Source: Heterotrichella gracilis
Taxonomy: Eukaryota > Sar > Xanthophyceae > Tribonematales > Xanthonemataceae
NCBI GenBank assembly: GCA_032358255.1
Contig: JAULBX010005553.1
Location: forward strand, 186,001-250,000
Direction of reading: 5' to 3'
DNA length: 64,000 bases
A model generated the notes under the pieces. The model did no database searches. It worked only from the letters and a program-made list of their open reading frames with translations, and was not told the origin of the DNA. The translations under genes were made by a program, and so were the position numbers. Shown here in pieces: positions 26,819-64,000 of this stretch (the stretch's first letter is position 1; every line of letters begins with the position of its first letter).

Positions 26819-28880
26819 GAAGTTTGGGATCTGCAAGCAGCTTAGCAGCTGGGCGGCCTGCCGTTTTGAAGAACACATGTTTTGGGCGGGTACAGCAGTG
26901 CTCAGTCGGTGCAGACAGGCAGACAGGCAGATTGACTGTTCATACGGTGCAGACAGGCAAATTAACTGTTCATACTTCCACTGTTACTTGCTAGTTCACA
27001 GAGGGAAGTACATACAGCCAACGCCTGTGTGGCATTGTTGGTGTGGGGTGCAGCCTCTGGATGGGGACTGTACCTTTATAAGTTTTGACTACGCACCAGC
27101 GCCTCTGCGCACCTTGGTATTTTTCACTGGAAACTTGTTGTTGGAACCACCAACCCAAGCCACTTGCGTGTCCCATCTTTTTACATAGAGCCCGTACTTA
27201 CTTGCTATGTCAAGTCCATTTACCAACCAGTGCCCGTGAGTCTCCACCTATATGCAACTGTGCACATACTGTGGCCTGTGGGCTACACATTTTTGGACCC
27301 CTTTGAAGCTTTCCAGATCGTGGGAGTTGTTACCAAGACTGGATTGCTGACAGCATGACGCATCGCACGAGCGTTGACTTGAGAGAACACTGCAATTGTT
27401 GTTGCCCAGGCCCTGGGCCAGGGAAGACTGACTGCGTTGGGTGTTGACGCCACACGTCAATTTCAGTGACCTCTTGGGGCCCATGTTTATGAAAGAAAGT
27501 AGTGTGTGGGGGTGTGGTACCACTATTGGTGAACGCATCTCATCTTGTCTCGAGTCAAGTTCTTGTACCCTCTGTACATCATTCTTTGAAAAGCACTGCC
27601 TGTGCAACATCAAAGATGCACTGTTGTGCATCCAGTCACCATGGTACAGTGACTTTGGGTTGTGACAGCGTGCTAACATCAACTGATGATATGGCGCCAA
27701 CTGGTCAGGTGCGTTGACGCCCCGCATGTATTTTAATACCTGTACAGGTAGCTGGTCACTAAACTGCAAGCAAATTCATTGCAGCAAAATTAAAAATGGA
27801 CAATATATATACATTTCTCCATGAAGGACCTTCATGTGGTGTCAACAGCTTTGGCAGTGGCCCCCTACTCCGCCGCGGCCCGGCCATGGCAAAGTTTGTA
27901 CCAAGCAGGCACAACTGTATTGCGTACTGCCACTGCCAGCAACTATACATGTAGTGGCTAGTGGCAGTATACTGTATTTCCCAACACTTCAAAGCGCGCG
28001 CTTTGAAGTCCTTAGCACTGCTACAGTTTTAGGCCGTGGCAAATACTGATTCCACTGTCACAGGCCTGCACATCGTTTGCATTAGAATTGGCAATATCAC
28101 ATAATCATTAAGTATCGTTCTGATAGCCTTCAAACCCATGAAGTAAGTGGCTGTAAAGATAGAGTGGCTCACAGTAAAAATTGCATCATAGAATCAGCCT
28201 CTCCACTGGGTAAATAAACTCCAAAAACACCCCATTGAACTCACAAAAATTCTCAACAAGCCCGGCCAGTTTGGATTTCATTTCCTGCGCCTTTGGCCTG
28301 CGGATCCATAATCAAGCAACATCCAATCCCCTTCCCACACAAATATACATGGCCTTACATACCATGCACCATGCACTATGGACCCACAGTCGGGCATCGC
28401 CACAGTCCACATCAGCCCAGCTCTCACGCTTGCCTATGTTATCCACCCACACGCTTCCCCCTCAATTAATACGATATGCCTACCTTGCCTCCAAACCACA
28501 CCCTCCGTCCCCTCTCAATCAGCATGATAAGGCTACCATGCATGGTGCACCGCCAGCTGCACCTTGTGACCAACCACTTTGCCAGCATCCACACACACCC
28601 TCCAGACTCGAATCCACATGGATGCCCATCATGCAGCGGTATGCGGCTGACACCACCTCGTCGCCCATCCCAGGAGGTATATCATTTTGCACTATAGGCC
28701 CCTTACCCATCCCAGCGGAAATAAAAAAATCAGGGGCTATTCTAGCCCCCGCAGGTCTATCCTAGCCCCCGCAGGTCTATCCACATGTTCCCTCCCCTCT
28801 CCGATCAATATGTTGTGCCCACTTTGCGGTGGTGCACCGCCAACAGCGCCTCATCATCCACATGTCCCCTCCCCTCAACG
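26819..28880. other. Long intergenic region upstream of the FLVA 3' end
   Basis: It contains a GCAGACAGGCA tandem array at about 26910-26965. From about 28530 onward there are decayed copies of the FLVA 3' end. TTACA at 28355-28359 (TGTAA on the minus strand) could be the FLVA poly(A) signal. No supported gene. Confidence 0.5.
26910..26965. repeat. GCAGACAGG tandem repeat
   Basis: Repeated GGCAGACA units followed by a second copy of the block GTGCAGACAGGCA...TTAACTGTTCATAC. It is a simple local duplication in intergenic DNA. Confidence 0.75.
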
Positions 28881-28935
28881 TCAATATGTTGTGCCCACCT
28901 TGCGGTGGTGCACCGCCGACAGCACCTTCTCATCC
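28807..28935 (-). repeat. Tandem copies of the FLVA 3' end
   Basis: The segment at about 28807-28859 repeats the terminal FLVA coding bases at about 28882-28935, including the complement of its CACCACCGCAAGGTG codons and stop. An older, weaker copy lies at about 28534-28592 (GGTGCACCGCCAGCTGCACC...). The true stop is the most upstream one in the direction of transcription, so these copies lie in the 3' flank. Confidence 0.8.
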
Positions 28936-31900
28936 ACCACCTTGCCAGCGTCAACCACCGCATACACGATCCAGTGGTCCCCCGCCTCCATGCGCTGCTG
29001 CACGCTGCACTCGAGGTAGGCGGCAGCATCGGGCAGCACCACGCACCCGGTACCCTCGCTAAGGGTCACGTCCATGCCGGCAAAGCGGTCCTCGGCGGGC
29101 TTGAAGGGCTTGAGCAGCTGCTTCATGATGGGCTGCAGGGTGAGGAACAGGTTAGGTAGGATTTAGGGTTTCTTCAGGGTTTAGGGTTGAAGAGCTTGAG
29201 CAGCTGCTTCATGACAGGTTGCGAGGTGAGGAACAGGTTGGTAGGGTTTACGGGTTTTGTAAAGGTTTAAAGTTGAAGAGCTCGAGCAGCTGCTTGATGC
29301 AGGACTGAGGAGGAAAAAGTTCAATGTAATCTATGCTCCTGAACACACACGGTGCTGTCAATCCTACACCATGCTTTCATGCAACCCAACCGGTGTGGCA
29401 GCGCCCTTGTCACTAACCCTCCGCCTCACCTTTTCCTTCCCCTCTGCCAGCACATTCAGGTTGAACTTGTTCCCCCTGACCATGAAATTCTCCACTGCCC
29501 GGTCCTTCTTCACAGAGATGGTCAGGCCAGGGGGGTTGAAGGAGGCCTGGAACAGGGGAGGAATGTCACCACACAGATACCGCTTTCCCTCCCCTCAGGG
29601 ACCAGTACTGGATTGCTGGGTGTCTGCTTACTACATGAAACCAGTGGGAGCATGCATGCACATGCCACTGGTCCAGAGCTGGGCGATGCAGCCGCACGTT
29701 CCGCACACTATGCCTCCACCCTCACCCACACCATACACACTCGCAGCGCAGACCCCTGATTGGCGCATGTAATGCATCACTGCAACGACATTGCAATCCC
29801 CACCCTGCCCTCCTCCCAAAACCCCAAAACCCCAAACCCACCTGTGAGATCCAGCTGGCCAGCATGGCGCTGGTCGCGTCCCCATCCTTGGCCGTCACCA
29901 CGCACATGGAACCAACCACCCGCCCCAGCGCCTGCTCCCTCCCCGTGGCAGCCGCGGCGCTCATCTTCCCCCCTGCGGGGTCCTTCCTCTCCGCCTTCTT
30001 CTTCTTCCTCACCAGCTGTGCCATGTCAGTGCCTGACTCCTCGCACAGCTGCAGCACCTGGGGCGTGGGCTTGAACTTGCAGCGGATGGACTCAAACGCA
30101 AAGGGGAAGCCGGCGTCCTTTGCAGGAAGGGGGGAGGGCAGTGAGGATAATGGGGAGAGTTGCATTCATGGAAACCAATGTCATCTCTAATCAGGGACTT
30201 TCCAGCGTATTTCCAGGGCAGAGAGGCCGCTAGCATCCTGTTGCAGTGTAGGGCAAAAAATGTGTGGATACTTTGGAAAGAGACCATAACGGTACGTATA
30301 ATAGGTATCAAGTTACGTATTATTGTCCACAATATAGGTTGTGCAATGCATAACGTAACTCCAAAACTACAACACACGCCACCACCAATAAGAACCACAG
30401 GTGGGCATACAAGGACCAGTAGGTACGCAGGGGCACACTGTGGACTGCACCCAGAAACCTACCCTTAGCTTTTGCTCCATTTCATCCACCGCCTCCCCTG
30501 ACCATCCAAAGCTCCCAAACACCCCGGAGGGTTTGCCGGCAGCTGACCCCTCCTTGATGATGGAGCCAAGGGTGGTCTGAACCTGTAGGGAGAAACGGGG
30601 AGGGAACACGGGTATCAACACCAAGCCTTAGGTCACAATCAGACAGGACAGGTTAGAGGTTTGTGAGATCCTGCGCAAGGGTGTTGCAATCAAATTGGCG
30701 TGAAGACAGCACAGTACCACATGGAAGCCAAAGGATGTGATAAACCACAGCTTATTTGTGAGCAGCAGTCCTTGCACCGTGAGCTGCATAAAGCCTAGGC
30801 TCTGTACCACTTTCTGCGTTGGCAGATGGCATTCCAGCGTTGGCACCCCTGATATAAACCCTAGGCCTACACCCTGCACCCTTACCTGTGTGGGCATGTG
30901 CCCCCCCAGCGTGGGCGACCCTATCACAAACCCTGCGCAGCGCTCGCACGCAGCGGTCACCTCATCCAGGGTTGCCACCTCAAGGTTGAGGGTCTCCACC
31001 CCCACCCCCGCCTTGGTGATGCCCCTGGAGATGGCCTGTGCCAGGGCTGCGGTGTTGCCGTAGGCTGATGCGTACAGCACCGCCACGGAGCACTCGTCGG
31101 CGGCCGCAATCTGGTTGGTGATCCACGTGCTGCCAAACCACAAGGAAGGGTTTTCAGGTACATGCTGCAAAGCCACAAGGGAGGGTTTTCATGGCTGCAA
31201 TCGGACTTGGGAGCAACCTCATGCAAAGACATAAAGGACAGGTTTCCCGGTACGAGATGCAAAGCCACAAGGGAGGGTTTCAAGGGCGCAATTTGGCTGG
31301 TGATCCACATGCTGCGAACCACAAGATAGGGTTTTCTTGTTTTCTGTTTCATCTCTTTACATGCCTTCTGTTCCATCTGGCCTTGCGCAGATCCACCCAG
31401 CAGGTCCCTAACCCTACGTCCAAAACCCTAAAACCCTAGCCAACACCCACCTGTAGTTGCGCAGCAGCTCCATCAGGCAATCATAACCCCAAACCCTAAT
31501 CCATACCATAATACCCTGCACCACCACCTGTTGTTGCTTGGCAGCTCCACCAGGGAGTCCCTGACCACCGGCCCGTGCAGCAGGGCGATCTCAGCAACCA
31601 CCATGAGCCCAACCACCAAATCCCTAAACCCTACACCCTCGACAACAACCTGTAGTTGCCCAGCTCCTCCAGGCAGTTGCAAACCCCAAATCTTAATACC
31701 CTGCATCCCCACCTGTAGTTGCGCAGCAGCTCCACCAGGGAGTCCCTGACCACCGGCCCGTGCAGGGGGGCGATCTCAGCAACCACCATTGGCCCAGCCA
31801 GGCCACTCCCCTCCTGCTCCTCCTCGTTCAGCTTGATGCCCAGCCGCTGGAGCGCATCGGAGATTGCGTTCTCAAGGGGCTTGAGCAGGTCGGAAAAGAA

Positions 31901-34762
31901 GGGGAGGAGGCCAGTGGAGTTGACAGGGGCGGGGGCGATGGACAGCTTCTGGAGGGCAACTGCAGGGGGTGGGTGGGATGGGTGGGGTAAAAGAATGAAG
32001 CAAAACCTATAAGATGACACCCAGATGAATCCCTAGAGCCCTCAACGGCACCCCAGAGGATGAGCCGTCTCCGCAGTTACTGGTAGTGCGTCAACAGCAT
32101 CGTGCCTGCCTTTGGGAACTAGTGGATATATACAGTACATCTTCTGTACAGGGTTTTGTACAGGGTTATTTTGTGGCTGGCACCTTGCAGCGTATTGTGT
32201 TGGACAGGAGTGCCTGGCGGTTAGCAACTATCGGTGGATGCATCCTTTTGGGGCCACGCATGTAACTGTAACTGTTTGTACAGGGTTTGAGCAGAGATTT
32301 TCAGCAGGAAATTTTCATTCCTATATCCAGCAGCGCTTTCCGCCCGCGCACCTGACACCTGCTTTGCCACCGGCGCCAGCATGCAGTCAAAGTAGTGCAT
32401 TTTTAGGGTTTAGGGTTTTCCGCTCCCCGCACCTGCCGCCTGCTTCGCCACCGGCGCCAGCATGCAGTCAAAGTAGTGCCTCCAGTCCGCGCCGTACACC
32501 TGCCAGCCCCCCATGTCGCACACGCTGTCGGGGTCCTTGCCCACCAGCGAGGGGTTGACGTGCGCCGAGAAGAACTTGGAGGAAAACAGCAGCCTGTGCT
32601 TGGCCGAGTAGGTGCACAGCAGGTCGGGCCAGCGGGGGGTGGGGATGGGGATGAAGGCCAGCTCCTCCCCGCTGGCCATTGTGTATGTCACCCCTGCCTT
32701 GGCCACCACCACGTCGAGCAGGGGGAGCAGGCGGGCGGTTTCATCCATCTCGCCTGGGGAGGAAGGGTACCATTAAGCATTTTATTAGAGCATGGGAGGT
32801 ATATAGAACAGCATAGCTCCACAGCCAGTACATGGACATGCCCATGTGGACACGAGACACGTAATTGTGCATGATGAAGCAGTAGGATCATAGCAACAAT
32901 GTGGGTCAAAGCCCAGTTGAAGTCCAAATCGTTCGCCTAGATGGAGCACAAACGTGCGATGGGGAGGCCGTTACGCCACTAGCTTGTGCCATGTGCTGGT
33001 CATGTAACGAGTGGGCAAGTGGCAGGTGGCATGCACATTCAGCATGTGCATGTCATCAAGGCAGCAATCCAGGGGGTTGACAGTATTCTCACCCAGATGG
33101 GAGCGCAGCAGCTGCAGCGCCGGATTGGACATGACCAGTTTCAAGGGGGGCGCGTCAGGCGCCGCCTTCACCCTCCCCTGGATGAGGGCCCTAATGGAGG
33201 ACAGGCGCTTGGGGGACAGGTGGGAGATGACCACGCATTTGAGGGTGGCAAGGGCATTCTGCTCCTCCATGGCTTGCACTGTGGGGCACAAGGGGGGGAT
33301 AAGGAGACGCAAAGGGGAGTATTAAGGTGTTGGCGCTTGCCGCACCAGATTGGTTGACTGGCTGTGTGCTGACCACAATGCTCTTCTGACCATGCCGAGA
33401 AAGCAGACTTGATGTAGGCATGGCGTCACGCATTCTGCGCCCTAGCAAAGACGCTTGCAAGCCGCCAGCAACTGTGACCCAAGCCATTCATCTCATGAAC
33501 GGCTAGGAGTAGATGATTCTAGCAACCACGACATATAAGCCTGGCAATGGCCCTAGCATGTTGCAGCAAGCTCCAGCACATGCAACAGCATGCAGGAGGC
33601 AACGGTGTAGTTATTTTTGCAGACCCACTTGACATGCTACCCAATTTGTCTGTGTACTTATAGAGTCAAGGTTTAGGGTTTTCCAACCCCCGCACGACAC
33701 CCTACCGAACTTGTCTGTGTAGGTTTCATCGGGCACATCCAGGATGACCTCCGCGGCGCCTGACGCGTCCTGCACACGCCACGCCACAGTAGGGTCACCG
33801 CTGCCTAGGGAGGAGTGCATTGCATGCCATCATTGCATGCCACCACTGCGTGCCATTTTAACGCGAATGCAAGTTCCCTAGGGTGTAGATCATTAAGTGA
33901 CTGCAAACCCTGTACTCTACACCCTACCTGTAGGATGTACACGTTGTCTGTTGACCCCCGCTTGAGCCCATACTCCACTTCAAACTTGAGCTGGTCGCTG
34001 CACACGCCACGAACGCACACCACGCCGTCAACCACAGGCAGGGTTTGGAACACCACGTCTGGTGGCGGGGCGGAGGGGGGTGGGGAGGGAGGAGCGGCCT
34101 GCGGTGTTGAGGTGGGGGTTAATAAGGGAGGGGACTGCGTGATATCGCGAGGAGGCACGGGTGGGCATGGGATGGTGTCACACACGGTGTGTTTGTATCA
34201 ATGGGGCATGGGAGGATGTTGAAGCGAGCTGTTAGTGGTGGGTAGTGTGCTGAAAGTTATGGGTTACCCGTGACAACAGCAATGGATAAGGGTGGCCACA
34301 TCCTTGTGGCACCAGCTCACCAAAACAAGTGGGCATTGGGTAGGCGATGGGTACTGGCGGATGAGTTTGGGAATAAATGTGCGTTAGACTAGACTGCCAC
34401 CTGCTCACAGCTGGGAAAAACGCAATGCAAGCCACCACCAAGAGTGGCACACACACCATTCCACCAACCCACCCCACCACCCAGGAACTAGCACATTGGT
34501 TGAAGCATCACCCACACACTGTTAAGGCACATAAGTTTCGAGCGTGCCGTGCCTGTGTTTCTGCTTGGCTCACGCTGCTGGCCTGGGGCAGAGTGGTGGC
34601 ATACTGCCAGCGTTGCGAGGGGCCAGTGGAGAATGGGGCAGGGGTGGGGATGGGAAGGAGATGCCGACGCGATGCGCGGGCGGTGGAGGCTTTCCGGCTG
34701 CCACCGCTGACCGGCAGCTTGCCACACAAGACAGCTTGCTGGGTGGTCAATGCCGAGTTCAT
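28881..34762 (-). CDS. FLVA: Flavodiiron protein A (FLVA/Flv1-type), plastid
   Basis: Eleven exons, 740 aa, high to low: 34762-34574, 34098-33923, 33800-33706, 33278-33093, 32753-32433, 31959-31713, 31129-30886, 30582-30463, 30117-29842, 29546-29430, 29132-28881. It is a subunit of the FLVA/FLVB complex that reduces O2 downstream of photosystem I. Domain order is beta-lactamase-like, flavodoxin (ASAYGNTAALAQAISRG, about 425-441) and C-terminal flavin reductase (ending HHRKVGTTY). The diiron ligands are replaced as in FLVA proteins: the HxExDH motif is HLSPKR (173-178), and R256 and K275 sit where FLVB has His and Asp. Exon 1 (63 aa) is Ser/Arg/Ala-rich and looks like a transit peptide, but its joint to exon 2 is inferred. 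The exon 2/3 joint is also uncertain: the strong donor at 33928 does not keep phase, so 33923 was chosen. It is head-to-head with FLVB. Confidence 0.92.
29167..29305 (-). repeat. Two echoes of an FLVA exon edge in its last intron
   Basis: GAGCTTGAGCAGCTGCTTCATGA plus GTGAGGAACAGGTT recurs at about 29192-29240, and a weaker copy lies at about 29276-29305. Both repeat the acceptor border of the last exon (about 29100-29155). AGGGTTTAGGGTTGAAGAG-like telomeric units separate the copies. Confidence 0.85.
31140..31700 (-). repeat. FLVA intron built of echoes from both flanking exons
   Basis: The intron 31130-31712 contains at least two copies of the downstream exon edge (about 31180-31215 and 31287-31335, repeating GGTGATCCACRTGCTGC...ACCACAAG). 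It also contains three copies of the upstream exon edge (about 31451-31485, 31528-31612 and 31650-31680, repeating CACCTGTAGTTGCGCAGCAGC...). CCCTAAAACCCTA motifs lie between the two groups. Confidence 0.85.
32348..32398 (-). repeat. Echo of an FLVA exon 3' edge with its donor
   Basis: GCCACCGGCGCCAGCATGCA and the following GTCAAAGTAGTGC are repeated from the exon edge at about 32431-32480, including the donor context CGCACCTG. TTTAGGGTTTAGGG sits exactly between the two copies. Confidence 0.9.
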
Positions 34763-35642
34763 TGCGAGTTGGTGAGTCGCTTCAATGTTAGGTGGAATGC
34801 ATGCATGCACTGCAGGGGTTGGGTTGCGAGCGACAACAGCCCGTGTGGAGCTACCCCTGTGGAATTGTTGAGAAACAGTGTTTACGAAACTGCCCTTGTC
34901 TCGTAAAGTTGTTGGGTGTTCAACCCCAGCTGTCTGCGTTCAACGCAACAGGTGGGTACGTCAACGAGGTTAGGGTACTTAAGCAGCCTTACTGCTTGAA
35001 ACCGTACTGGGCGAGAGGCACGTCGATGCCTTGCGTACATCCGATGCTATGATAGCATTGCTGCGAGCCAAGTGTGGCCAAGTGATGCATCCAGGCTTTT
35101 GTTTCGGCAGAAGAAGTTGCACAAAGACGCTATTGCAACCCGGAAATTCGGCATTCCCTGTATTTCCATCTCAGGGGTGTAAATTTTCGAGGGTAACGAG
35201 TGTTGCATTTCTAGGGCCTCGACACTGTTTGCCGCTGCGACATGATTTGGGTCCAGCAGACATACGTTCAAATGCACCATACCCAAATGCCTGGGAGGTA
35301 TCAAAATGTTCTCTATCCTAAAAATTGTATACTCGAGCGCCATCCCCCAAACCATACTATCCGAAACCCTGTCTTCACCTTCCATAAGCTCCCGGCCAGG
35401 GTAAACTACCCCACGAAAGACACACCTTACGGGACGACAGTGCCGCGATCCTGTGCATTGGAGGGGTTTCGAACACCCATCTCAACACCCACCGGAATAC
35501 AACCCTATCACATTGCACCAAAAATAACCCCAGCTGTGGCCTGGACCACCCGTTGCCCCTTCCCACCAGCTCTATAAACCCAACTCACTCAAAAGCCCTT
35601 AGCTTTAAAACCACACCGCTTGCCTCGGGAGCACACCCAATC
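34763..35642. promoter_or_regulatory. Shared divergent promoter region of FLVA and FLVB
   Basis: 880 bp separate the two start codons. A TATAAA box lies at 35573-35578 facing FLVB; no clear TATA was noticed facing FLVA. The head-to-head layout would allow coordinated, perhaps light-regulated, expression of the two partners. That regulation is inferred from layout, not seen. Confidence 0.65.
35573..35578 (+). promoter_or_regulatory. TATA box candidate for FLVB
   Basis: TATAAA in the context CAGCTCTATAAACCC, 65 bp upstream of the FLVB ATG. It implies a short 5' UTR of about 35-40 bases. Confidence 0.6.
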
Positions 35643-38600
35643 ATGGCCCTGGCTATGCACGGTACAGCCATGAGGCATCAAGCCCTGCCAGCTTCTACCC
35701 ACAGCAGGCCACCCCTGGCCACCCCACCCCATAGCAGGGTGGCGGTGCTCAGGGCCCTGCCGCGCCCCACCACCGCCCACAGGCGGCGGGTGGTGCCCTG
35801 CCAGGCTGTGGCAGCACCGGTGGGTCCCTTACACACCCTGCTGCATCTCTCCAGCTCCCTCATGGTATTCACATGTTGATTGCAGCAGCTTTCTCTTAAG
35901 GCACCTCATACACACATAGCATGCTTTTGACAACTAGGTTGCGCTTCTTGGTGTGTTGCGCCAGGTCTTGTATCCACTTGTGACCACCTTGGTGTGTGTG
36001 TATGGCTGGTGGGTGCACCGCACAAGGTATTTGCACACGCATGCACGGCAAGGCAAAACGAGATTGCATACAGGTGCACCGCAAAGGGTTCGGCTCACCG
36101 TATGTGGCGTACCATATATGGCATACAGGTGCAACATAGGGTATGGGTCGCAGCGCGCAACCATGTAGTATGCATTCCCTCCGGACCGCACCTCCTCTGG
36201 GCGCCAAGTGGCACTGGGCATGCGGTAGCGCAAGGACCACAGTGGGTCTGCACCACGTAGAATCTCATCACAGGTGTGCACCTCCTGCCCAGCAACGCAG
36301 CTCACGGCGACCTAGCAACCCTGTCCAACCCACACTCCAGGCAGTGTGTTAGGGTTTGTCTAGGGTTTTGCCATCCTCACATGCCCTTTGTGGTTCCCCC
36401 TGCAGGAGAAGGTGCAGGAGTCCTCTCTGTCCCCTATCCAGCTGTGGCAGGGGTCAAAGCGCCTGCAAACACAGGTACGCACTAGCCCCCTTAGCAGCGC
36501 TCTGGCCGCCTGGTGTCCTGCCTACATAGGTTGGGGCAGCAGGGTGGCCTCCTTCCTATATAGTATTGTTCCAAACCTACTTGTACATTTCTTCTGTTTC
36601 TATTCCTATTCTCATCTTGATGCCCCAACCCTGTCGCCCCCCTGCAACCCCATGGTTACTTACATATCGAGGGTACGAAGCACCATCGATAAATGGGTGC
36701 CCCTGTGCAGGTTGCCCCCGTGGCTGATGACACCATAACCATCCGCTCGCTGGACTGGGACAGGGACCGGTTTGACATCGAGTTTGGGTAAGGAGCCCGC
36801 TCTAGGCGCTGAGGTTCTCGGGAAGCATCACCATGCCCATTCACAGCGTTGGGAGCCAATAGCCGCTTTCCGCTTGTAACTGTCAAGTGTATTTATATTG
36901 CATGGTGGACCTGGGCCACTGCAAATGCGGTGCCCACCCTCTTGTGCCCACCCTCTTGTACCCAATTGCACCAACTGGCATATTGCTGCATTTTAGTATT
37001 CTTCATATTTGCACACTGTCAGAATCACTTGGTCATTATATTGGGGCATTTTTTCACATTTATTCAATGCCTAGTGCCCCGTGCCTGCACATATAAATGA
37101 CTAGCATCCACACACATCATGGGCCTGGCCAAAAGGTAATTCATGCCTCGCCAAAATGTAGTGTCGAAAAGGTGTTTCATGCTAGGGCACGAAAGCTTAA
37201 CCCCTAAGCAGGGTCATTTATTGCAGACCCTAGGCAGGGCAATGGCACAAGGCCATGCATCCTAGGCAAGAGTGTGAGGGCATTGCGCAGCAGCAATTGC
37301 TTCCGCACTCACATCCTAGGGTTTCCCACCCCACCGCACCCACCCTCCCCTGCAAGCACCAGAACGGCACTCCCTACAACTCCCTCCTCATTGTCGGGCT
37401 CAAGAAACCCTCATCCTAGGGTTCCCCTCCCCGTCGCACCCACCCACCGCACCCCTCCTGCAGGCTCCAGAACGGCACCACCTACAACTCCTTCCTCATC
37501 TTTGGCCTGGAGAAGACCGCCCTGGTTGATGCCAGCCACGAGAAGTTCCGGGGCCTGTACCTGGAGACACTCAAGGCGCAGCTGGAGGAGGCGGGCAGGG
37601 GGATTGACTACATAGTGGTCAGCCACACGGAGCCGGACCACAGCGGTGGGTGGTGGTGGGGATGTATTGTCTTGTGGGTAGCATATAAAACCTGACCACA
37701 ATCGTGGGTGGTGGAATTCAATGTGATTTAAAGCATGGAGCGTTATTGCAGCGGTGGGCGGTGGGGTGGGGGCTTGGTGGGGGTGGTGGGGATTCATCAC
37801 CTTGTAGGTATGCACTTGGACCCTGATCGCAGCATGAGTGGGGTAGGGACTGGTAGGGTGGTGGTGGGGATTGGATTTCATTTTGCTGGTCCATTACCCT
37901 GTATTCATCCCGTAGATGCAATTGTAAGTTGCTGTCTGTTATTATGGCCGTGTTGCTGAAATGCTCTCGGCCTCAACCCTAACTCGTTGTCCCTAGTACT
38001 GACCCTTGCCCACGACCCGCAGGCCTGGTGCCGGACGTCCTGGACATGTACCCCGATGCGGTGGTTGTTGGCTCCAAGGTGTGCCTGGCGTTCCTTCGGG
38101 GCCTCACCCACCGCCCCTCCAAGGAGCAGGTGGTCAAAGGGGGGGACAAGATTGACCTGGGCGGGGGCCACGTGCTGGAGTTTGTCATGGCGCCCAACCT
38201 GCACTGGCCGGACACCATGTTCAGCTTTGACCACGCCACAGGTAAGGGTTTTCGGGGGATAGTACTCGAAACCCTACACTTGCTGGCTGGACACCAATGG
38301 CCATTTTGGACCACTCCATTGGCAAAGATGATAGTGCATTTGGGCCCTTAAACCTTGTCAAAGTAGAAGCCAGATTTTAGCATTAACTTCAGTGCTAGTA
38401 AGTTTTGGTCATTCAAGTGCATTCCTGCTTAAAGCAGGCTCGTGCCTGTGGTGACCTTCCTATAAGGACTGTACACATCCTGCAATCCCCGCCTGAAGCC
38501 CTCATGCCCCTCTGCCCTGCAGGTGTGATGTTCACCTGCGACGCCTTTGGCATGCACTACTGCTCGGAGGAGCCCTACGACACAGACCTGCGCAGCATAG

Positions 38601-41600
38601 AGCCGCACTACAGGTGGGACACTAAACCCTAAACTTGCACCAACATACCCCTTAAACCCTACACTACTGGTCGGAGGATACAGGCAACGCAGACCTGCGC
38701 AGCAAGAACGGCATTGCAGCTGTGACCTCAACCCTCAACCTGCACAGCAGCCACGCACAGGCGCTTTAACCCAACCAGCACAATATCCTTCTCGTTGTTA
38801 GGTTTAACTCAATATCTCCAGTTGAGTACATTTCTAATTACTGCAAGCGCACCTGCAGTTTTGCTACAAGTACCTGTAACTATCTGTGATGATTCTTTGG
38901 GTTCTATCACGATTCATCTGATGTAAGTGCCGTTGCTCCTGCAGGTTCTACTACGACTGCCTGATGCGCCCCAACTCGCGCAGCGTGACCACCGCCATCC
39001 GCAAGGTGAAGGGCCTCAACTACACAACCATTGCAAACGGGCATGGGCCGCTGCTGAGATACAACATACCGGAGCTGGTGGGCAAGTGCGTGCGATAAAA
39101 CCCTAAACATAACCCTAGTGGAATACTGAATCATCAGTATAGAAACTTTACTTGGGGGAGAGTGCCGCTGCGCACTCGCAACAACCTTCCCAGGGCTCAG
39201 ATGGTGCGCTGGAACTCGAGTTGATCTCAAGCCAAACACCTCCCCATTTCCAGGTATAAATTATGGAGTGATGTGGTTAAAAGCCACTACTTACCCTTTA
39301 CCCCCCTCTTAATCTGCCCTCCAGGTACCAGTCCTGGAGCGAGTCCATCCAGAAGGCACCCGCCTCGGTTGCCATCCTCTACTCCAGCGACTACGGCTAC
39401 AGTGATCGGCTGAGCCAAACCCTGGCCAAGGGTATCACCAAGACGGGGGTGGCCACGGAAATGGTGGACATCTTGAGCGTGGACCCCCAGGAGCTGGTGA
39501 GTCTTAATTCTCAGTGCTGTTGCAAGTGACAGATGCATAGTATTGATGGTTGAAAGGGGTCGCCAATGTTGCATTGACAGGCATAAAGACTGTCACGAGT
39601 CGACAGTATGTGTGCTGTTGCAATGACAGACAAAGTGTTGGTTGCTGGTTTGACGGACATCTCTTCTTTGGGTGCAGGTTGAGATCCTTGGTCGCAACGT
39701 GGGTGTGGTGCTCATGGCCTTCCCCCACAGCAGCAGCGAGGCGCAGGCAGGCATGTCAACGCTGCTGTCGGCAATCAAGCCAAAGTCAAAGGTGCGCAGC
39801 TTAGGGTTTAGGGTTTTGCCAAGTGTGTGGGGCTGTGGGCAGGGCGCTTGACCACGGTGGGTTTCGGGGAGGACACTAGCCTTGTTGTATTTGGAGGCTT
39901 TGATACACAGTGATCTTTGTTACCGTTTAGCAAACACCTGAAAATGCTGGAATATCATAATTGAATAATGATTATAAATGATGGTTAGTGGGATATTAGC
40001 AGTGTACTGGTACTGTTTTGCGGGGTCTTAAGGTCCTTCCCTGTGCAGGTCATCATTGCCGAGAGCTACGGTGGTGACGACGAGCCTGTGGACATCCTGC
40101 GTATGGCGCTGGTCAGCCGCGGGATTGAGCCAGAGGGCGAGGCGCTGCGGGTGAAGGAGATTCCAACAGAGGCAACCTACCAGGTGGGGGGAGGGGAGGG
40201 GCTGTGTGCTTGTGCGCTGGGAGAGTAGCCACTGTTGATGGGGGCAGTGAAGGTGGAGGGCTGGTTGTGGGTACAAGGAGAGAGCGTCCCTCCATCCACC
40301 ATTCTATACTTCCTGTTCTGATGGTTAATGCAGCCCTCTGGGCCACGCATGTTACTGGTGAGAGCATGCATGCCGATCTTCATCAATCCCGCAAACCCCC
40401 ACTCCCATCCCTCCATCCCAGGGCTACGAGGAGGCAGGCACTGATCTTGCGCAGGCCCTGGTGGCCAAGGACACGGTGGCGGCCAAGAAGGCGGCCATGC
40501 CCGCAGACATCGCCAAGGCGCTTGCGCGCATCAGCAGCGGGCTGTACGTGGTCACTGCCGCGCACACGGACGCAAGGAGCGCCATGATTGCCAGCTGGGT
40601 GGCGCAGGTAGGGGGCGGGGAGGTTGGTAGCTGATGGTGGGTGCATGCCCCTTGGCGCAGAGGCCTTGTGACCCATGCAGCAACATGCGGGCCATGTGTT
40701 ACCTGTTTGTGGAAATCCCCGGGTGTTAAAATAATGCAAACGGGTGCAGCCGCAAGGTTTTGACAGCCACACAGGGTGACTCCATACCTTCTGACATGCC
40801 CACCTTGCACCAATGGGCGTGACATGTTCCCTCCCCCCCCACAGGCCTCCTTCGAACCCCCTGGCCTCACCATCGCAGTGGCCAAAGACCGTGCCATTGA
40901 GTCGCTCATGCAGGTGAGCGGAGCCCCAACATTAGCTGGGGTTTAAAGGATCATATTGTGTGGTGGGCCAGCTTGCCTATTTGTGGAGACCTGCCTATGT
41001 TTCCTCGCTCAGCTCTGTCCTGGGTTGGCAGTGCTCGTACGCAAGATGCATTTCCCCCTTCCAAGAATTCTTGGTGATGATGACATGTTGCACAAATGAT
41101 GTGCATGGTACCAAGCGACCCCCTCCCCGCGCAGGTTGGGGACTCCTTTGTGCTCAACATTGCGTACAAGATTTCTTGCTTCCTTGCTTTATCGCTTTAC
41201 TAACTCCACCCTCACCCGCGCAGGTTGGGGACTCCTTTGTGCTCAACTGCCTGGGCGAGAACGATTACGGCGGCGTGATGAAGCACTTCCTGCAGCGCTT
41301 CCCTGCGGGCGCGGACCGCTTCGAGGGCATCGAGTGGTTCCCCTCGCCCGGCAATGGCAGCCCCGTGCTGCGCGCCTCCATCGCCTACATGGAGTGCAAG
41401 GTGCTGTCGCGCATGGAGACGCCGGACCACTGGATCACCTACTGCGAGGTGCAGGTGCGTGTGTGGAGGGTTCAGGGTTTAGGTTTAAGGGTTTGATGTG
41501 CACCAGGACACTGGCTTGCGTACTGCGAGGTGCAGGTTCGTGCGTGCAGAGTTTAGGGTTTAGTTCCCAGCGTCTAGGGTCTCATGGCATGCGTGTACAT

Positions 41601-41806
41601 GGCAGCAGCCTGGGCTGTGCATGCTTTAGCGCCTGACCTCCCCCTTTGGAGATACTGTTTATCATTGTAATTGGATCTGCATCTGTACATACAAGTCTCA
41701 CCTGGGGCATTCCTTTCATTGGCCCCCACATGTGCAGGACGGGAACGTGGCGGACGCCACCAGCAAGACTGCGGTGCACAGGCGCAAGGTGGCAAACTAC
41801 TACTGA
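35643..41806 (+). CDS. FLVB: Flavodiiron protein B (FLVB/Flv3-type), plastid
   Basis: Fourteen exons, 643 aa: 35643-35819, 36406-36474, 36711-36787, 37464-37645, 38023-38241, 38523-38613, 38945-39085, 39325-39496, 39678-39791, 40049-40183, 40422-40607, 40845-40913, 41224-41454, 41738-41806. It is the partner of FLVA in reducing O2 to water with electrons from photosystem I. The first 59 residues (Ala/Arg/Ser/Pro-rich, with RRRVVPCQAV) look like a chloroplast transit peptide. All diiron ligands are present: H162, E164, D166, H167 (HTEPDH), H229 (NLHWPD), D248 (CDAFGMHYC) and H305 (NGHG). The flavodoxin domain follows (SSDYGYSDRLSQTLAKGI, about 339). The flavin reductase domain contains IASWVAQASFEPPGLTIAVAK and ends HRRKVANYY. 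Six of its introns or intron edges carry decayed copies of adjacent exon sequence. Confidence 0.96.
37314..37416 (+). repeat. Tandem duplication of FLVB exon 4 5' edge (pseudo-exon)
   Basis: About 105 bp repeated immediately downstream at 37416-37520. Each unit starts CCTAGGGTTYCCC, runs through a C-rich acceptor tract and enters CCAGAACGGCACYNCCTACAACTCC. In the upstream copy the acceptor reads TGCAAG and the frame decays, so only the downstream copy is used as exon 4. Confidence 0.92.
37688..37870 (+). repeat. Echoes of the exon 4 donor edge in FLVB intron 4
   Basis: CCTGACCACAATCGTGGGTGGTGG (about 37691) and TGGACCCTGATCGCAGCATG (about 37816) are decayed copies of the exon end CCGGACCACAGCGGTGGGTGGTGGTGGGG. 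Each is followed by the same G/T-rich intron start. Confidence 0.75.
38281..38327 (+). repeat. Echo of the exon 5 end in FLVB intron 5
   Basis: TGGCTGGACACCAATGGCCA and the following TTTTGGACCACTCCATTGGC mirror the exon end at 38211-38243 (CACTGGCCGGACACCATGTT, then CAGCTTTGACCACGCCACAGG), about 70 bp away. Confidence 0.8.
38661..38705 (+). repeat. Echo of exon 6 in FLVB intron 6
   Basis: ACACTACTGGTCGGAGGATA followed by CAGGCAACGCAGACCTGCGC repeats exon 6 at 38556-38595, which reads CACTACTGCTCGGAGGAGCC and then CTACGACACAGACCTGCGCA. A CTTAAACCCTACA telomere-like motif directly precedes it. Confidence 0.88.
41120..41158 (+). repeat. Echo of exon 13 acceptor and start in FLVB intron 12
   Basis: CCCGCGCAGGTTGGGGACTC followed by CTTTGTGCTCAAC is repeated identically at the real exon start (41214-41246), 91 bp downstream. 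The echo keeps a functional-looking acceptor, so it could act as a decoy or alternative splice site. Its continuation ATTGCGTACAAG diverges from the exon. Confidence 0.93.
41501..41540 (+). repeat. Echo of the exon 13 end in FLVB intron 13
   Basis: ACTGGCTTGCGTACTGCGAG and GTGCAGGTTCGTGCGTG repeat the exon end ACTGGATCACCTACTGCGAG with its donor GTGCAGGTGCGTGTGTG (41430-41465). GGTTCAGGGTTTAGG lies between the copies, and AGTTTAGGGTTTAG follows. Confidence 0.9.
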
Positions 41807-45617: not shown

Positions 45618-45619
45618 CC

Positions 45620-50637: not shown

Positions 50638-53600
50638 TCACGCCCCCTCCTCCCCCTCCCCCTTCTTGTGCAGCTGGCCAATGAGGTGCTGGACAATGGG
50701 GGACCCCTCTGCCCCCTCCAGCTCACCCAAAATGGCCTCCAGGGCCGCCCCATCGCGCCTGTCCTCGGCATCAAGGATGGACTCAAACACATCGGAGGCC
50801 TTTTGCAGGAAGGCGGGGGCAATGGCGTCGTCAAACTCCACCTGAAAAGTGGGACAGGGGGAGGGTTTAGGGTTTCGGGTGCGGCGTAGGGTGTTGGGTG
50901 ACGCTCTGCGGGTTGCATGGCTGTTGGGAATAGGGGCGTGCTAAATGCCCGGCATGGGAGATGCTACACATCGTTTTTGGCAAGCGCGTCTATTTCACTA
51001 TTGCTCACTCTGCAAGTGTGACATGTGCAAATGCATGTATACTACAATGGTGCACATGCTGCGCAAGCTACACATGGTGATGTACAACTTAGCAATATAG
51101 AGAACCACACGCTGACCCGGCCCTTCAACTTTCTTGACATCTTGATTAGGCTGACTTGAGCGCACATGCGCCGCAATCTGGTGTGGAATCCATCCATGTG
51201 GGGCGCATCCCACCCACGACACCCACCCCCTTCACACACACAGCACAGCAGCAGCACCACCCTCCTTCCCCACCTTTCCCTGATCGTTGAGGCGGATGTA
51301 CCCCAGCTCCACCCCGCGGGTCCAGCATGACACTGCGCTGATGGCGTAGGGGCGGAAGGCGCTGCTGCCCCACATCAGGTACCTGGAGCCAGGGGGGAGA
51401 AGGGGGGTATGCTAGGGGTTTAAATGGGGAAGGGGTTGCAGCTGCCCCACATCAGGTACCTGGGGGCCAGGGGGGAAAGGGGTTGCTGCATATCAGGTTC
51501 CTGGGGGCAAGGGGGGAAAGGGGTTGCTCTTGCCATTCAGGTTCCTGGGGTAGGGGGAGAGTTGGGTATGATGGGGGGTATGATGGGGTGCTGCGGCCCA
51601 CACTATGCCCATGGATGGAGGGCGGGAGGAGGAGTTAAGATTCGTGCTAGCGGGGAAGAGGCGCGAATGCCCTCAGCAAAACCGTAAACCCTAAACCCTA
51701 GCCAAAGTGGTACGGACGGTAAACGATACAGAGCCTGGACAGGATCCATAGCAATCAGTAACCACCTTCCCTTGCGTGTTTTGCCACCCCTGTCTCCTGA
51801 GGTCCTGGAGCGCTAACAGCAGCGCAGGCTCCCCCCAAACCCTAGCCCAAAGCCCACCCGAAACCCCACCCACCTTCTGAGGTCCTGCAGCATGAAGCTG
51901 CACAGCACCTTGGCCGCAGTGTCCACCGACACCATGCCCCGCTCCTGCAGCAGCCTCAGGGTGTGCAGGGCAGTCAGCTCTGCGCGGGGCTCCTCAAGGA
52001 GGGTCTTGGTGGTGGACTGCGGGGGGTGGTTAGGGTGTCGGATAGGGTTTTAGGGAGGTCTGCAGGGATGTGGTTGGTCAGCTCGGTACAGGCTGCCTCA
52101 AGGAGGGTCATGGTGGTGGTTTGAGGAGGGAAGGCAGGGTGCCAGGTAGGGTTTCAGTGGCCTGCCAGGTGTGGGTGTGAGTGTGGGCCTCAGGCCACCC
52201 ATGCCATGGATAACAACAGGCCATACAACGGGCGGGCTGCAGGATTTGCACACATGCACGGAGGTGCGGGCGGTCCCCGTAGAGTCGTCCCCCACGCACT
52301 TGCACGGTTCTTGTTCCCTCCCCTCCCACCCACCCACCCACCCCACATTTCCCCCACCTTGATATCCTCCTTGAGCACATCCAGTCCGTAGATTGCGTGC
52401 CCAATCTCATGCGCCGCCACGTGGTACACAAGGGTCTGGATGGTGTCAATGCGATCCGCAAGGGAGGCGTCCGCGCACACCTGAAACAAGGCGGGTTAGG
52501 GTTCAGGGTTTGGAATTTAGGTTCTTGAGAGGTGTCCTCGCACACTAAGATCAAAGGGGCGAGGGAGGTGGGGGGTGGGGGGCGTGGGGTGGGGGGCGTG
52601 GGGTGTTGGGCGTGCACCCTTGAAACACGGGGGAGAGGGGTGGGGTTGCATGGGTGGGTGGGTGGCGGGCAAGGGAGGTGCTGTGTAGGCTTTAGAATTT
52701 ATGGTGCCTTGAGTAGGGTGTTTCTCAGTACACCTGTGTGGCCAGCTGTTTGGCTGACCACATGCTGTCCCCTGTTTAGGGTTTAGGCATGATGTGGTTA
52801 GGGTTTAGGGTATTGTTCGGCGCACCTGAATGGCCAGCTCCTTTGCCGATTTCTCCCTTGTGCCCATGGACACTGGGTCAAAGTAGATCTTGACACCCAT
52901 GCGGTCACGCACCTCAGACCTGCAGCCAGGGGGTGGCACAACTGTGAGCACAAATGCAAACAACCATAGACTTCGAGACGAGATAGCAGGGTTTAGGGTG
53001 GGGTGCAGGGCAAGCTTAGGGTACATAGGCCACCTACTAGGAATGCTCTCCCCAGTGAACTTGATTAATAGGTTGGGGTTTGGGTTTCATCATAGGGTTT
53101 CAGGATGTAGGGTTCTTGATAGGGTTTAGGGTATATAATAGGGTTAAATAGGTTTCATACTAGGGTTTTACACCCCCTACCTGTTGGGGATGCTCTGCCC
53201 CGCAAATCTAAAGTGCAGCTGCGCCGCGCACTGGAAGGGGATGAAGTAGATCCCCGCCATGGACTGCGCAAGCGCACTCAGCCCCCCCTTGGCGATGTCA
53301 CTGGTCCTTCCCTTGAAATACTCCACCATCACCCCCTGGATGTCGGAGATGATGGCGTTCTGCTCCCCAAATGTCTCATCCATGAGCCGGATTGAGAACT
53401 CGGGGGACACCTTACAGCGCAGCGGGTCGGCGTAGCCGTACTCCAGGTCGTGGACCACCTGCAGGGTTTAGGGTTTAGAGTTTGGGGCAGGGTTTGGGGT
53501 TGAGGGTTCAGGGGAGTGGGTCGGCGTAGCTGTGCTCCGGGTCCAACGCCTTTGGTTCTTCTAGGGTCAATGGTTCGAGTACACTACAACATGCAACAAA

Positions 53601-56856: not shown

Positions 56857-56870
56857 TCACACCCCCAGGC
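56665..56870. repeat. C-rich degenerate tandem repeat
   Basis: At least three units of about 55-60 bp combining a GCATACAC-like start with CCCTCCCTCACCCCT runs. It directly abuts the glycosyltransferase stop codon and may be another terminal-duplication product. Confidence 0.6.
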
Positions 56871-59800: not shown

Positions 59801-60348
59801 TATTCTTGCCATTCTTGACTTGAAGCATTCAGAAGCAGTGGGGAAACGCAGCGGTCACTCTCACAATGTAATGCAATCCGGGTATGGAGATAGCTGCATC
59901 CTTACCGTCGCCCAGAAACACGATGCTGTTCTTGTACAATACCAAGTTTCTAAATACACACACGCGGTGCTCGTCCCGCACAGCATGGTCGCACTGCACA
60001 GGAAAAACAAGGGGTCAGATACAAATACTTGCTGTCTGCTGGCTGGCAAATACCATGAACGGAGCATGGGGTGGGAACTACCTCATAAGTTGACTTCTTC
60101 CAGACATGGTGCTGTCCTTGCCCGTCTCCTTGATCATTATGGACCTGGAAGCCTCCATCTTCACTCAAACGCCGCGACCTGTGTGACTCAGGTCGCAACG
60201 CAGACTGCTGCGCCTCATCACTGCTGCCTGCTCGCTGCCTGGGCAACTGTGGATCTAGGTGTAGAGCACTGCACTGACCCAGCTGCCAGCTGCCCAATAT
60301 GGCAGCACACAGCAGGAGCTGGGCTGTGGTGTAGCCCATGGCCGGCAT
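56857..60348 (-). CDS. GT61 (DUF563)-like glycosyltransferase
   Basis: Eight exons, 520 aa, high to low: 60348-60082, 59993-59906, 59757-59636, 59397-59280, 59012-58864, 58341-57817, 57425-57307, 57031-56857. It is a probable secretory-pathway type II glycosyltransferase. The N-terminus MPAMGYTTAQLLLCAAILGS is a signal or signal-anchor segment. The family pattern is visible: CDHAVRDEHRVCVFRNLVLY early on, NYHHMLMEFLPS, an INRPQQHGRSILN motif (about 332-344) matching the R-x-R-x-I-x-N element of GT61, and HGASMANWVFLPKGAVAVHI (about 388-407) matching 'HGAGLTNMLFLPPGAVVVEI'. The donor and acceptor sugars cannot be told from sequence; plant members include xylosyl- and arabinosyltransferases, and animal EOGT is related. 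All exon joints keep phase. Confidence 0.85.
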
Positions 60349-62477: not shown

Positions 62478-64000
62478 ATGCAGGCCTCAAAACTGCTGCT
62501 TATACTTGCAGTGCTACCCACACTAGCCTGGGGACAATATGACGAATGTAAGTCGGGCAGCAAACCCTTGCCATTGTGGCTTGGTGCAGGGCTGCAAAGC
62601 TTTCTGGTATTGCTACTCCGCTGGTTGACACTCTGCGCTGGTATGCTGGTGGCGTATTTTGAAGCGCAATGCCGCATGCACCCCCACCTCGCATTGCCGT
62701 TTGTGGACCCGCACCTCCCCACAGAGCACCACCCTCGCCAAGATTGGGCCTCACACCCACCTGCACACGCCACAAGCCCTGCATGTGGCGGGGGTGGGTG
62801 CTGCCTGCGTCTCAATGCACCCTGAGGTTTAGGTGGTGCACCTTGCACCCCTAACATTCACTCACTATGTGGCGAGACCCATAGGCACCACTGGTGCCCG
62901 CACACACACCTGGAATACAGCCTGCTGTCCCCTCAAGCCTCGGCTTGTCCCCACACTTTCCTGCCCAGTCCCCGCCTGCATGTCTCCAACCCCAGTCCTC
63001 CTCCCTCTGCAGACGGTTTCCTGTACACCATGCGCGAGGGCATCAGCAACTGGATGGACTTTTCCGCAGCCAACGGCTACGACTGGTCCGACAGCATCCC
63101 ATTCTGCCGCTGGACGGGCATCACATGCGACAGCGCGGGCCACGTCACCTCACTGTACGGCCCCACGCACACCCGCGCACACACCAGGCATATGCACCCT
63201 GCACCTACCACGCCACAGGGCTGGCGCTAGGCAGCGGCTTGTGCAGGGCAGGAGTGTGTGGCGCGTGGCCGCTGTTGGTGCATATTTTTCAACTGAGGCC
63301 ATGCCTGCAGCCATACTTGTGCACACGACCCTGCACCTCGCACACCTGCTGTGGGTGTGGATACCCTTCCCAGCGGTGCATCCCTGGCGGGGCAGGCCTG
63401 GGCACGCGGGCTGCGGCTGAGCACCCACCTTGCCCATGACCACTTCCACCACCACCCACTCTCCCCTCCCCTTGCAGGATCATCAACGTGACCTCCGAGG
63501 TGCCTGCCACAGGCCCCCTGCCCCCCCGCCTGTTTGAGCTGGAGTACCTAGAAACATGGTGCGTCCGTGGTACTGCAAAACCCTAAACCCTGCCGCTTGG
63601 TTGAGCTGGAGTATGGTGCATGGTGCATGCACTCTACCGCAACACCCTCCAATTTGGTGTAGGCTGCTTAGTGGCGAAAGTGTGGGGGTTGGGCAGGTGC
63701 ATCGGGACCCAGCGCATGGCGGTGAACAATTGCTTGTCTAAATCATTAAAGGAAAGGAAATATGAATGGGAAATGGGAAGTCCACGCCATGCAGACATGT
63801 GTTGTGTGTGAAGATGCGCTTCAGCAGGGCTTGAAGCGTAGCAACCATGCTTACACATGTTGCGCCACCCGCGCTCGCCTGTACTTTCGATCTCCTGCCC
63901 GCATGGACCTGTCCAACCAGGCCTTCACCCAGCAACAAAATAAACCATAAACCTTTTAATAAAACCTAACGTATTGCCTCTCCCCTTCCCGCAGTGACCT
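62478..64000 (+). CDS. Secreted leucine-rich-repeat protein, 5' part
   Basis: Exons 62478-62547, 63013-63154, 63478-63558 and 63995 onward; the gene runs past the window edge. The protein starts with a clear signal peptide, MQASKLLLILAVLPTLAWGQ. Next comes an LRR N-terminal cap of the plant type, with a paired tryptophan and cysteine (NWMDFSAANGYDWSD and FCRWTGITCDSAGHVTSL). The first repeats follow, IINVTSEVPATGPLPPRLFE then LEYLETW or LEYLETC-D-L at the last junction. In plants this architecture belongs to receptor-like kinases or receptor-like proteins and polygalacturonase inhibitors; the C-terminal part needed to decide is missing. Splice phases match at every junction. An echo of exon 3 lies in the third intron. 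Confidence 0.85.
63596..63636 (+). repeat. Echo of LRR exon 3 end
   Basis: GGTTGAGCTGGAGTATGGTG followed by CATGGTGCATGC repeats the exon end TGTTTGAGCTGGAGTACCTAGAAACATGGTGCGTCC (63532-63564). AAAACCCTAAACCCTGCC separates the copies. Confidence 0.85.

Follow-up and report, generated by a model that had tools for sequence, protein, structure and literature searches.

Mammalian double-strand breaks acquire insertions of short interstitial telomeric sequences (PMC2246262, PMC7215372). In the sections of these reports drawn on here, insertion occurs in one step, the target is sometimes duplicated and no insertion lies in a human exon. Target duplications are few (3/66 horse loci plus 2 complex ones, 6/130 in rodents, 4/25 in primates), deletions are commoner than duplications, and the intronic share of the human insertions (31%) agrees with random insertion (PMC2246262, PMC7215372). 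In mammalian cells, CST-Pol alpha-primase fills in breaks that carry 3' overhangs, and small tandem duplications result (PMC8355091); paired-nick duplications are known from plants (Schiml 2016, as cited in PMC8355091). Vertebrate repair-mediated duplications carry filler and microhomology and copy exons and intron splice sites (PMC2671141). Duplications at exon-intron borders are also described in work on tandem-duplication intron gain (PMC4974935) and on direct repeats near splice sites (PMC11782384). All comparisons refer to excerpts of these publications.

The window, i.e. the whole stretch of 64,000 nucleotides that was analysed, contains introns with copies of the adjacent exon border (exon echoes), often with a tract of TTTAGGG/CCCTAAA units between copy and original. 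The tracts resemble the mammalian insertions in being short and away from chromosome ends; unlike those described in the excerpts, nearly half of the sampled tracts (49/108) lie between two copies, and tracts are concentrated at donor sites. With the CST-dependent duplications the echoes share a direct duplication of tens of bp, as expected for an overhang segment after fill-in and end joining, but the excerpted account (PMC8355091) reports no telomere filler, and the splice-border context is new here. The vertebrate duplications are likewise local, with filler and microhomology; their copies, however, lie about 1.2 kb off on average and may be inverted (one exon case; PMC2671141), whereas those reported here lie within 350 bp and are direct, at a far higher density near borders. 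In PMC4974935 and PMC11782384 a new intron is made, or the two ends of one intron are compared; the echoes, by contrast, are border copies within introns that already exist. The statement in the preliminary description that no named system fits was therefore too strong, given the mammalian telomeric insertions, small tandem duplications and vertebrate repair-mediated duplications in these excerpts. On balance we lean towards reading the echoes as scars of DNA-break repair, in which a staggered break would duplicate the segment spanning it with telomerase-made filler in between.

Exon echoes in the window and in the sample

Introns were taken from our own ab initio gene models, made without RNA evidence. 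The sample comprised 267 kb of the host genome with 353 introns and included 20 extra 10-kb loci picked for a three-unit telomere tract at their centre. A border echo was defined as a copy of the adjacent exon border within the intron, with a score of at least 20 (strict) or at least 16 (looser). The window was also scanned for local direct repeats (ungapped score at least 16, distance 20-300). A telomere tract was assigned to an echo by a strict rule (tract score at least 11 between the aligned echo ends), which overlooks tracts inside the aligned border, e.g. 38622-38634. The principal features of the window are as follows.

28881..34762, minus strand: predicted FLVA-like flavodiiron gene, 12 exons (gene finder; PF01613, PF00258)
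29101..29307, minus strand: three-copy array at the acceptor border of FLVA exon 28881-29132, with tracts 29157-29171 and 29176-29188
31102..31318, minus strand: acceptor border of FLVA exon 30886-31129 and intronic copies (pairs 31102-31136/31284-31318 and 31125-31156/31160-31191)
31446..31800, minus strand: donor border (31686-31800) of FLVA exon 31713-31959, intronic copies 31446-31482 and 31501-31615, tracts 31485-31499 and 31622-31639
31528-31623, minus strand: predicted FLVA exon (gene finder model), probably an echo copy
32344..32479, minus strand: copy 32344-32398, tract 32402-32418, original 32425-32479 (donor border of FLVA exon 32433-32753), 93% identity; the clearest telomeric case in the window
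33624..33721, minus strand: copy 33624-33656, tract 33670-33681, original 33689-33721 (donor border of FLVA exon 33706-33769), border score 19
35670..41806, plus strand: predicted FLVB-like flavodiiron gene, 14 exons (gene finder; PF01613, PF19583, PF00753)
37330..37518, plus strand: copy 37330-37409, original 37439-37518 (acceptor border of FLVB exon 37464-37645), tract-free spacer
38555..38704, plus strand: original 38555-38597 (FLVB exon 38523-38613), tract 38622-38634, copy 38662-38704
41126..41247, plus strand: copy 41126-41158, original 41215-41247 (acceptor border of FLVB exon 41224-41454), 33/33 identical, 56-bp spacer without telomere tract
41424..41560, plus strand: original 41424-41479 (donor border of FLVB exon 41224-41454), tract from 12 nt past the donor, copy 41506-41560
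51361..51482, minus strand: direct pair 51361-51405/51438-51482 in the next minus-strand gene, 84% identity
52714..52849, minus strand: copy 52714-52757, tracts 52774-52787 and 52798-52811, original 52806-52849 (donor side, exon 52826-52919), 73% identity, weak
53415..53543, minus strand: original 53415-53449 (exon 53181-53458), tracts 53463-53487 and 53489-53513, copy 53509-53543
63521..63613, plus strand: original 63521-63546 (exon 63478-63558), tract 63578-63591, copy 63588-63613, score 18, weak; border score 19

Residues 72-464 of the FLVB model align with small gaps to a solved diflavin flavoprotein.

Exon echoes are confirmed as real. At the strict threshold, a border echo was found in 76/353 introns of the 267-kb sample and in 0/3530 mismatched controls per border type; the resulting 22% of echo-bearing introns is a value for the sample and not for the genome, because the extra loci were picked by their central tract. 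The whole window holds 31 local direct repeats, compared with 2, 0, 1, 0 and 0 in five block shuffles. Chance similarity as the cause of the copies is ruled out by these block shuffles together with the mismatched-border and permuted-flank controls. At least fifteen echo-bearing introns or flanks had been counted before; between 28.4 and 64 kb this number is reached at a score of at least 16 (18/48 introns) but not at 20 (12/48). Between 1 and 28.4 kb no echo was found in 33 introns at a score of at least 16. Few signs of echoes had been described for the JmjC, DHAR and TBP genes, and a contrast with the first 28 kb is borne out; it was drawn by coordinates, and these gene names, like LRR, are those of the earlier account. 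An even distribution over genes is ruled out (chi-square 77.9 on 35 df, with 0/2000 shuffles as high).

Copies were direct in 192 cases and inverted in 8, which rules out inverted, snap-back-type copying. Identity is graded from 0.6 to 1.0 across 138 events, and the splice site is included in 37/44 5' echoes and 36/43 3' echoes; in all three respects the preliminary description was right. Copies contact exons more than survival alone predicts. With the classes that the null cannot produce left out, exon contact was seen in 80/123 copies, and in 23/36 at 90% identity or more, for a null of about 20%. Border echoes and exon-touching bias support repeated local duplication across exon-intron borders, as first suggested.

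The introns themselves might have been made by duplication of an exon segment containing AG|GT, an idea that we hold to be extremely improbable. A slight low-score excess of donor-acceptor likeness would suit it (score at least 12 in 3/353 introns and 4/3497 controls; at least 10 in 8/353 and 21/3497), but at a score of at least 14 an in-register match was found in 0/353 introns and 1/3497 controls, and the other intron end is reached by only 3/44 5' echoes and 0/43 3' echoes.

Telomere tracts and their flanking copies

A two-unit search with TTTAGGGTTTAGGG gave 5629 matches genome-wide and 5 for the reversed control. Three-unit matches number 834 (overlapping) in 68.5 Mb, and 229 loci of at least four units are given for human in the excerpted reports, which allows a rough comparison only. 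Tracts number in the thousands in the genome, and in the sample they are mostly intronic. A telomerase gene is present (PF12009).

The arrangement copy, tract, copy is recurrent. Two copies of local sequence flank 49/108 tracts, and in 23 of these pairs neither copy is more than 10 bp from the tract; controls gave 0/2160 for permuted flank pairs and 5% for 1500 distant positions. In a later set of two-unit loci, 7/22 tracts were flanked by copies. Viewed from the repeats, a tract lies in 58/168 spacers, as against 8-25 of 141-165 after shifting of the pairs (in the window 11/25 as against 0-4 of 24-25), and the association with TTTAGGG is upheld. The earlier wording that most echoes are separated by such units was an overstatement: by the strict rule a tract occurs in 31/87 echoes of the sample and 5/13 of the window, leaving 56/87 tract-free, and the looser window count is the 11/25 just given.

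Ordinary minisatellite behaviour (slippage or unequal exchange), in which telomere units would belong to the repeat unit by chance, would account for arrays in which tract and duplicated segment are repeated jointly (window 29101-29307, loci L023, L088 and L098). We regard this as very unlikely, for there are 175 telomere tracts and at most 10 for each of 19 further cyclic classes with the same letter composition, and relative to shifted controls tracts are far commoner in the spacer than in the copies.

Tracts are concentrated just inside donor sites in both senses. In the last 40% of introns, 55 are of CCCTAAA sense and 8 of TTTAGGG sense, with no such skew in the first 40% (36 and 35). Genome-wide, TGCAGG stands after the C form in 334 cases and after the G form in 169; counts of CAGGT near tracts (upstream 467 and 382, downstream 303 and 419) could mean donor or acceptor and were superseded by CAGGTRNG. 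The skew and the TGCAGG counts would be expected if tracts near splice sites were retained by selection for splicing (CCCTAAAC branch point, C-rich tract) rather than by insertion bias, in which case their position would be uninformative on breaks. This we consider distinctly improbable, since it leaves unexplained the copies that abut tracts, the crowding of both senses at donors and the tract-free copies that touch exons; the sense bias is equally explained by avoidance of TTTAG as a false acceptor.

Telomere purity of the spacer rises with the likeness of the copies (Spearman 0.33, p 0.024, n 46); two other measures of tract age showed no such correlation (0.25, p 0.10; -0.02, p 0.89).

Break repair as a possible origin

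The repair-scar reading favoured above would proceed as follows. A staggered break would leave a segment X of about 30-100 bp single-stranded on either side, and telomerase would add a few TTTAGGG units to one 3' end. Both overhangs would then be filled in, conceivably by CST-Pol alpha-primase, which is also the telomere-end fill-in enzyme, and joining of the ends would yield X - TTTAGGGn - X; a larger class of events lacks the telomere filler. Where X lies wholly within an exon, the frame would be broken and the copy lost. With a splice site inside X, each of the two copies would carry one; the exon-contiguous copy would stay in use, as the gene models suggest, and the other would turn into intron and decay. 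The gene would survive, the intron would gain one X plus filler, and X would be visible as an exon echo. Vaughn and Bennetzen reportedly described in 2014 rice insertions with duplication of an overhang segment after fill-in and end joining.

Several results count against these steps. Several young pairs that lack a tract are set apart by as much as about 170 bp of spacer, which plain fill-in does not give, and many tract-free pairs have spacers longer than 10 bp. By the strict rule the majority of echoes are tract-free, and a preference of breaks for exon borders does not follow from these steps. Among simple events, homology of at least 3 nt occurs at the far junction in 7/29 (1.0 expected) and on the supposed primer side in 3/29 (0.7 expected), so that the larger excess is at the far junction. 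In-register homology of at least 1 nt was seen on the primer side in 7/26 events, where clear in-register priming was not found, and on the far side in 13/26. The far-junction excess and the direct orientation would fit template switching, in which a telomerase-extended end re-anneals upstream at a short TTTAGGG-like match and recopies X, making a staggered break unnecessary. We judge this unlikely: 22/29 simple events have less than 3 nt of far-junction homology, and tract-free copies are not predicted. Telomere-like microhomology had been tentatively proposed at first; with copies abutting the tract, inserted filler is a better reading of the telomere sequence than initiating microhomology, although the far junction also shows an excess of short homology.

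Introns with a tract or echo have a median length of 363 nt (n=128), those without either 247 nt (n=225). The medians fit the suggested route of intron lengthening but are no proof of it, because longer introns give more space for tracts and echoes. If staggered-break repair is the origin, a step of intron growth leaves a legible scar made up of the copy, in many cases a telomere filler, and the original; these components can be counted and, with a relative for comparison, dated. The scars would be natural, genome-wide evidence of telomere machinery acting at ordinary breaks, and would connect telomeric insertions with the CST fill-in model for small duplications. A bolder version, which we rate as tentative and rather doubtful, makes exon-intron junctions recurrent break sites in this lineage and telomerase-assisted repair there a main engine of intron growth, with C-strand scraps near acceptors becoming branch points; each event would then add a scrap of telomere and a second splice site, and telomere sequence would become a splicing signal. 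A mammalian study, in its excerpted text, deems the splicing effect of intronic telomere repeats interesting to test (PMC7215372).

Decay and composition of the copies

Changes in the copies are even across codon positions, and the exon shows extra third-position change; the copies decay like non-coding DNA, without coding constraint. An assembly artefact might be suspected from the 903 contigs of the assembly, yet it is scarcely credible in view of the graded identities, the coding constraint on the exon but not on the copy, and the recurrence of this arrangement at many separate loci. Among the copies no purging of decoy splice sites was seen, with GT intact in 32/44 (31.0 expected) and AG in 30/39 (28.5 expected); the copies would supply decoys of graded age for tests of splice-site choice.

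Filler from other loci was not found in the 267 kb, where 26 tract-free spacers matched their own locus only (7 match rows). This comparison, over the 267 kb, bears on introner elements, which form a dispersed family of alike inserts; in the echoes the segment X comes from the locus itself, and the filler consists of telomere units. Base composition as a source of the exon bias is not supported for intron-only events, in which the GC of X is that of its surroundings (0.518 and 0.533, n=37). Six intergenic events show the opposite trend (0.606 and 0.525).

Sampled sequence and gene models

The genome assembly comprises 68.5 Mb in 903 contigs. The main sample of 267,021 bases consists of the window (C57:186001-250000), twenty 10-kb loci and one 3-kb locus. 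Each 10-kb locus was picked with a three-unit telomere tract (a run of TTTAGGG/CCCTAAA) at its centre, which enriches the sample for tracts by design. For the tests of tract flanks, 60 short loci at three-unit tracts and 20 at two-unit tracts were added. Genes were predicted from the sequence with a gene finder written and self-trained for this analysis. It returned 353 introns with a median length of 289 nt; the splice sites in the window are CAG/GTGNGT donors and TGCAG/G acceptors. The gene finder, together with domain and structure matches, identified two flavodiiron genes in head-to-head arrangement, their predicted starts roughly 0.9 kb apart (34763-35669):

28881..34762, minus strand, FLVA-like gene (FLVA)
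35670..41806, plus strand, FLVB-like gene (FLVB)

Together with the splice sites, these genes make a green alga the likely source. Residues 72-464 of the FLVB model align to a solved diflavin flavoprotein with small gaps, and an ArgJ model has a family match over 393 residues. A glycosyltransferase-61 gene was joined to a DUF7897 gene; the latter is the 'metallopeptidase' of the preliminary description.

Exon echoes and their decay

A scan of the window for direct repeats lying 20-300 apart and aligning locally without gaps (score at least 16) found 31, against 2, 0, 1, 0 and 0 in five block shuffles. The preliminary description had reported decayed direct copies of adjacent exon borders within introns (exon echoes) and proposed aligning introns to their flanking exons as a check. 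Each border (up to 100 nt of exon plus 25 nt of intron) was aligned to the rest of its own intron, with telomere tracts masked. The excess was borne out: 76 of the 353 introns in the 267-kb sample carry an echo of either border at a score of at least 20 (44 5' and 43 3' borders), against 0/3530 mismatched-border controls for each border kind. The splice site lies inside 37/44 5' echoes and 36/43 3' echoes. In the window alone, 12/81 introns carry an echo at this score, and the contrast described between its parts also held. Between 28.4 and 64 kb, 18/48 introns score at least 16 and 12/48 at least 20, against 0/33 at 16 or more between 1 and 28.4 kb. Echoes are concentrated in certain genes (chi-square 77.9 with 35 df, reached in 0/2000 shuffles; 36 genes with at least four introns). 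Copying is not confined to borders, because 125-nt mid-intron pieces used as queries score in 19/212 cases.

The copies are overwhelmingly direct, with 192 direct and 8 inverted pairs (score at least 18, within 350 bp); 6/8 of the inverted pairs lie in predicted intergenic DNA. Intergenic inverted repeats with arms of 50-128 bp, 83-91% paired, are present in two loci outside the window (L019 4284-4562; L014 5352-5680 and 5434-5559) and are possibly hairpin or MITE-like elements. Once overlapping pairs were removed, 138 events were left, with an identity of 0.6-1.0, a median length of 42 and a median distance of 104. Differences between copy and exon number 201/1460, 191/1455 and 311/1459 at the three exon codon positions. 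The pattern shows a copy decaying evenly, free of coding constraint, with additional third-position change on the exon side. Splice dinucleotides in the copies survive as identity predicts. One FLVA echo copy (31528-31623) was called as a 96-nt in-frame exon whose peptide duplicates that of the exon before it; judged by eye, a relative of solved structure is without a matching insert. The call may represent a false exon or an alternative exon in the making.

Exons are touched by 95/138 events, and by 29/42 at 90% identity or more, where random placements with one copy non-coding give about 20%. After dropping the classes in which both copies touch exons, which are out of reach for this null, the counts are 80/123 and 23/36. 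Provided that the gene models are correct, the exon bias is therefore more than survival alone can explain.

Telomere tracts and their flanks

Genome-wide, TTTAGGGTTTAGGG has 2845+2784 overlapping matches and its reversed pattern 2+3; three-unit tracts number 406+428, against 0 reversed. The 267 kb contain 175 tracts of score 11 or more, where none of the 19 other cyclic classes built from these letters exceeds 10. A tract is found in 58/168 repeat spacers (8-25 of 141-165 after displacing the pairs by 400-2000 bp) and, with a smaller excess, inside 26/186 copies (7-19 of 155-183 shifted). Among deduplicated events the share is 29/115 against 4-9 of 99-110. Of 108 tracts of score 20 or more, 49 have left and right flanks that match each other at a score of at least 20; permuted pairs do so in 0/2160 cases, and of 1500 positions kept 600 bp or more away from tracts 5.0% do. 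The two-unit set gives 7/22. In 23 of the 49, neither copy is more than 10 bp from the tract, and several abut it directly. A flank-matched tract in an intron touches an exon in 29/37 cases (14/19 at an identity of at least 85%); another 12 flank-matched tracts were classed as intergenic, gene models on the short loci being weak. Young, nearly identical copies with no strong telomere tract in the spacer were also seen (spacer lengths given):

window 41126-41247, 56 bp
L020 (outside the window) 2804-3027, 146 bp
L025 (outside the window) 4387-4570, 124 bp

Away from the chosen locus centres, 107 tracts are in introns (1.20 per kb), 17 in intergenic DNA (0.34 per kb) and none in predicted exons; over the full sample the exonic count is 1/175. 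Intronic tracts start within 30 nt past the donor in 42/144 cases (17.7 expected if uniform). Genome-wide, CAGGTRNG occurs 261 times 0-22 nt before TTTAGGGTTTAGGG and 50 times at the same distance after it, and 166 times 0-22 nt before CCCTAAACCCTAAA. The last 40% of introns holds 55 CCCTAAA-sense and 8 TTTAGGG-sense tracts, the first 40% 36 and 35; TGCAGG follows the tract genome-wide 334 times for the C form and 169 for the G form. TTTAG is acceptor-like and CCCTAAAC branch-point-like, and the simplest cause of the acceptor-side bias is therefore selection on splicing.

Origin of the copies

The best supported mechanism is repair of DNA breaks in which the ends are filled in and telomerase supplies the filler. 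Both ends of a staggered break would be filled in and telomere units added before joining, leaving two copies of a segment flanking a tract. Telomerase is encoded (PF12009, in two pieces on contig C626). An account of mammalian cells describes small tandem duplications that arise at 3'-overhang breaks by fill-in with CST-Pol alpha-primase and by joining that depends on Ku (PMC8355091), and others describe telomere repeats entering mammalian breaks, occasionally with a duplicated target (PMC7215372, PMC2246262). Against the simple form of fill-in, 56/87 echoes are without a tract by strict count, and in several young pairs that also lack one the copies are as much as about 170 bp apart. Short homology is also in greater excess at the far junction (7/29 vs 1.0) than at the supposed primer (3/29 vs 0.7), which makes template switching a possible alternative. 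No strong signature of intron gain was found at a score of at least 14 (0/353 introns); at 12 or more, 3/353 introns compare with 4/3497 in the control. Every ingredient is already published; among the matches listed in the open-licence literature, none described border echoes that carry telomeric filler.

Telomere tracts are described as break-prone in yeast (PMC11626172), in work on longer tracts than these; from this, one scar may invite the next. In three further loci outside the window, a segment and its telomere tract occur as one unit in several copies, as though an existing scar had been amplified afterwards:

L023 1494-1882
L088 374-529
L098 301-417
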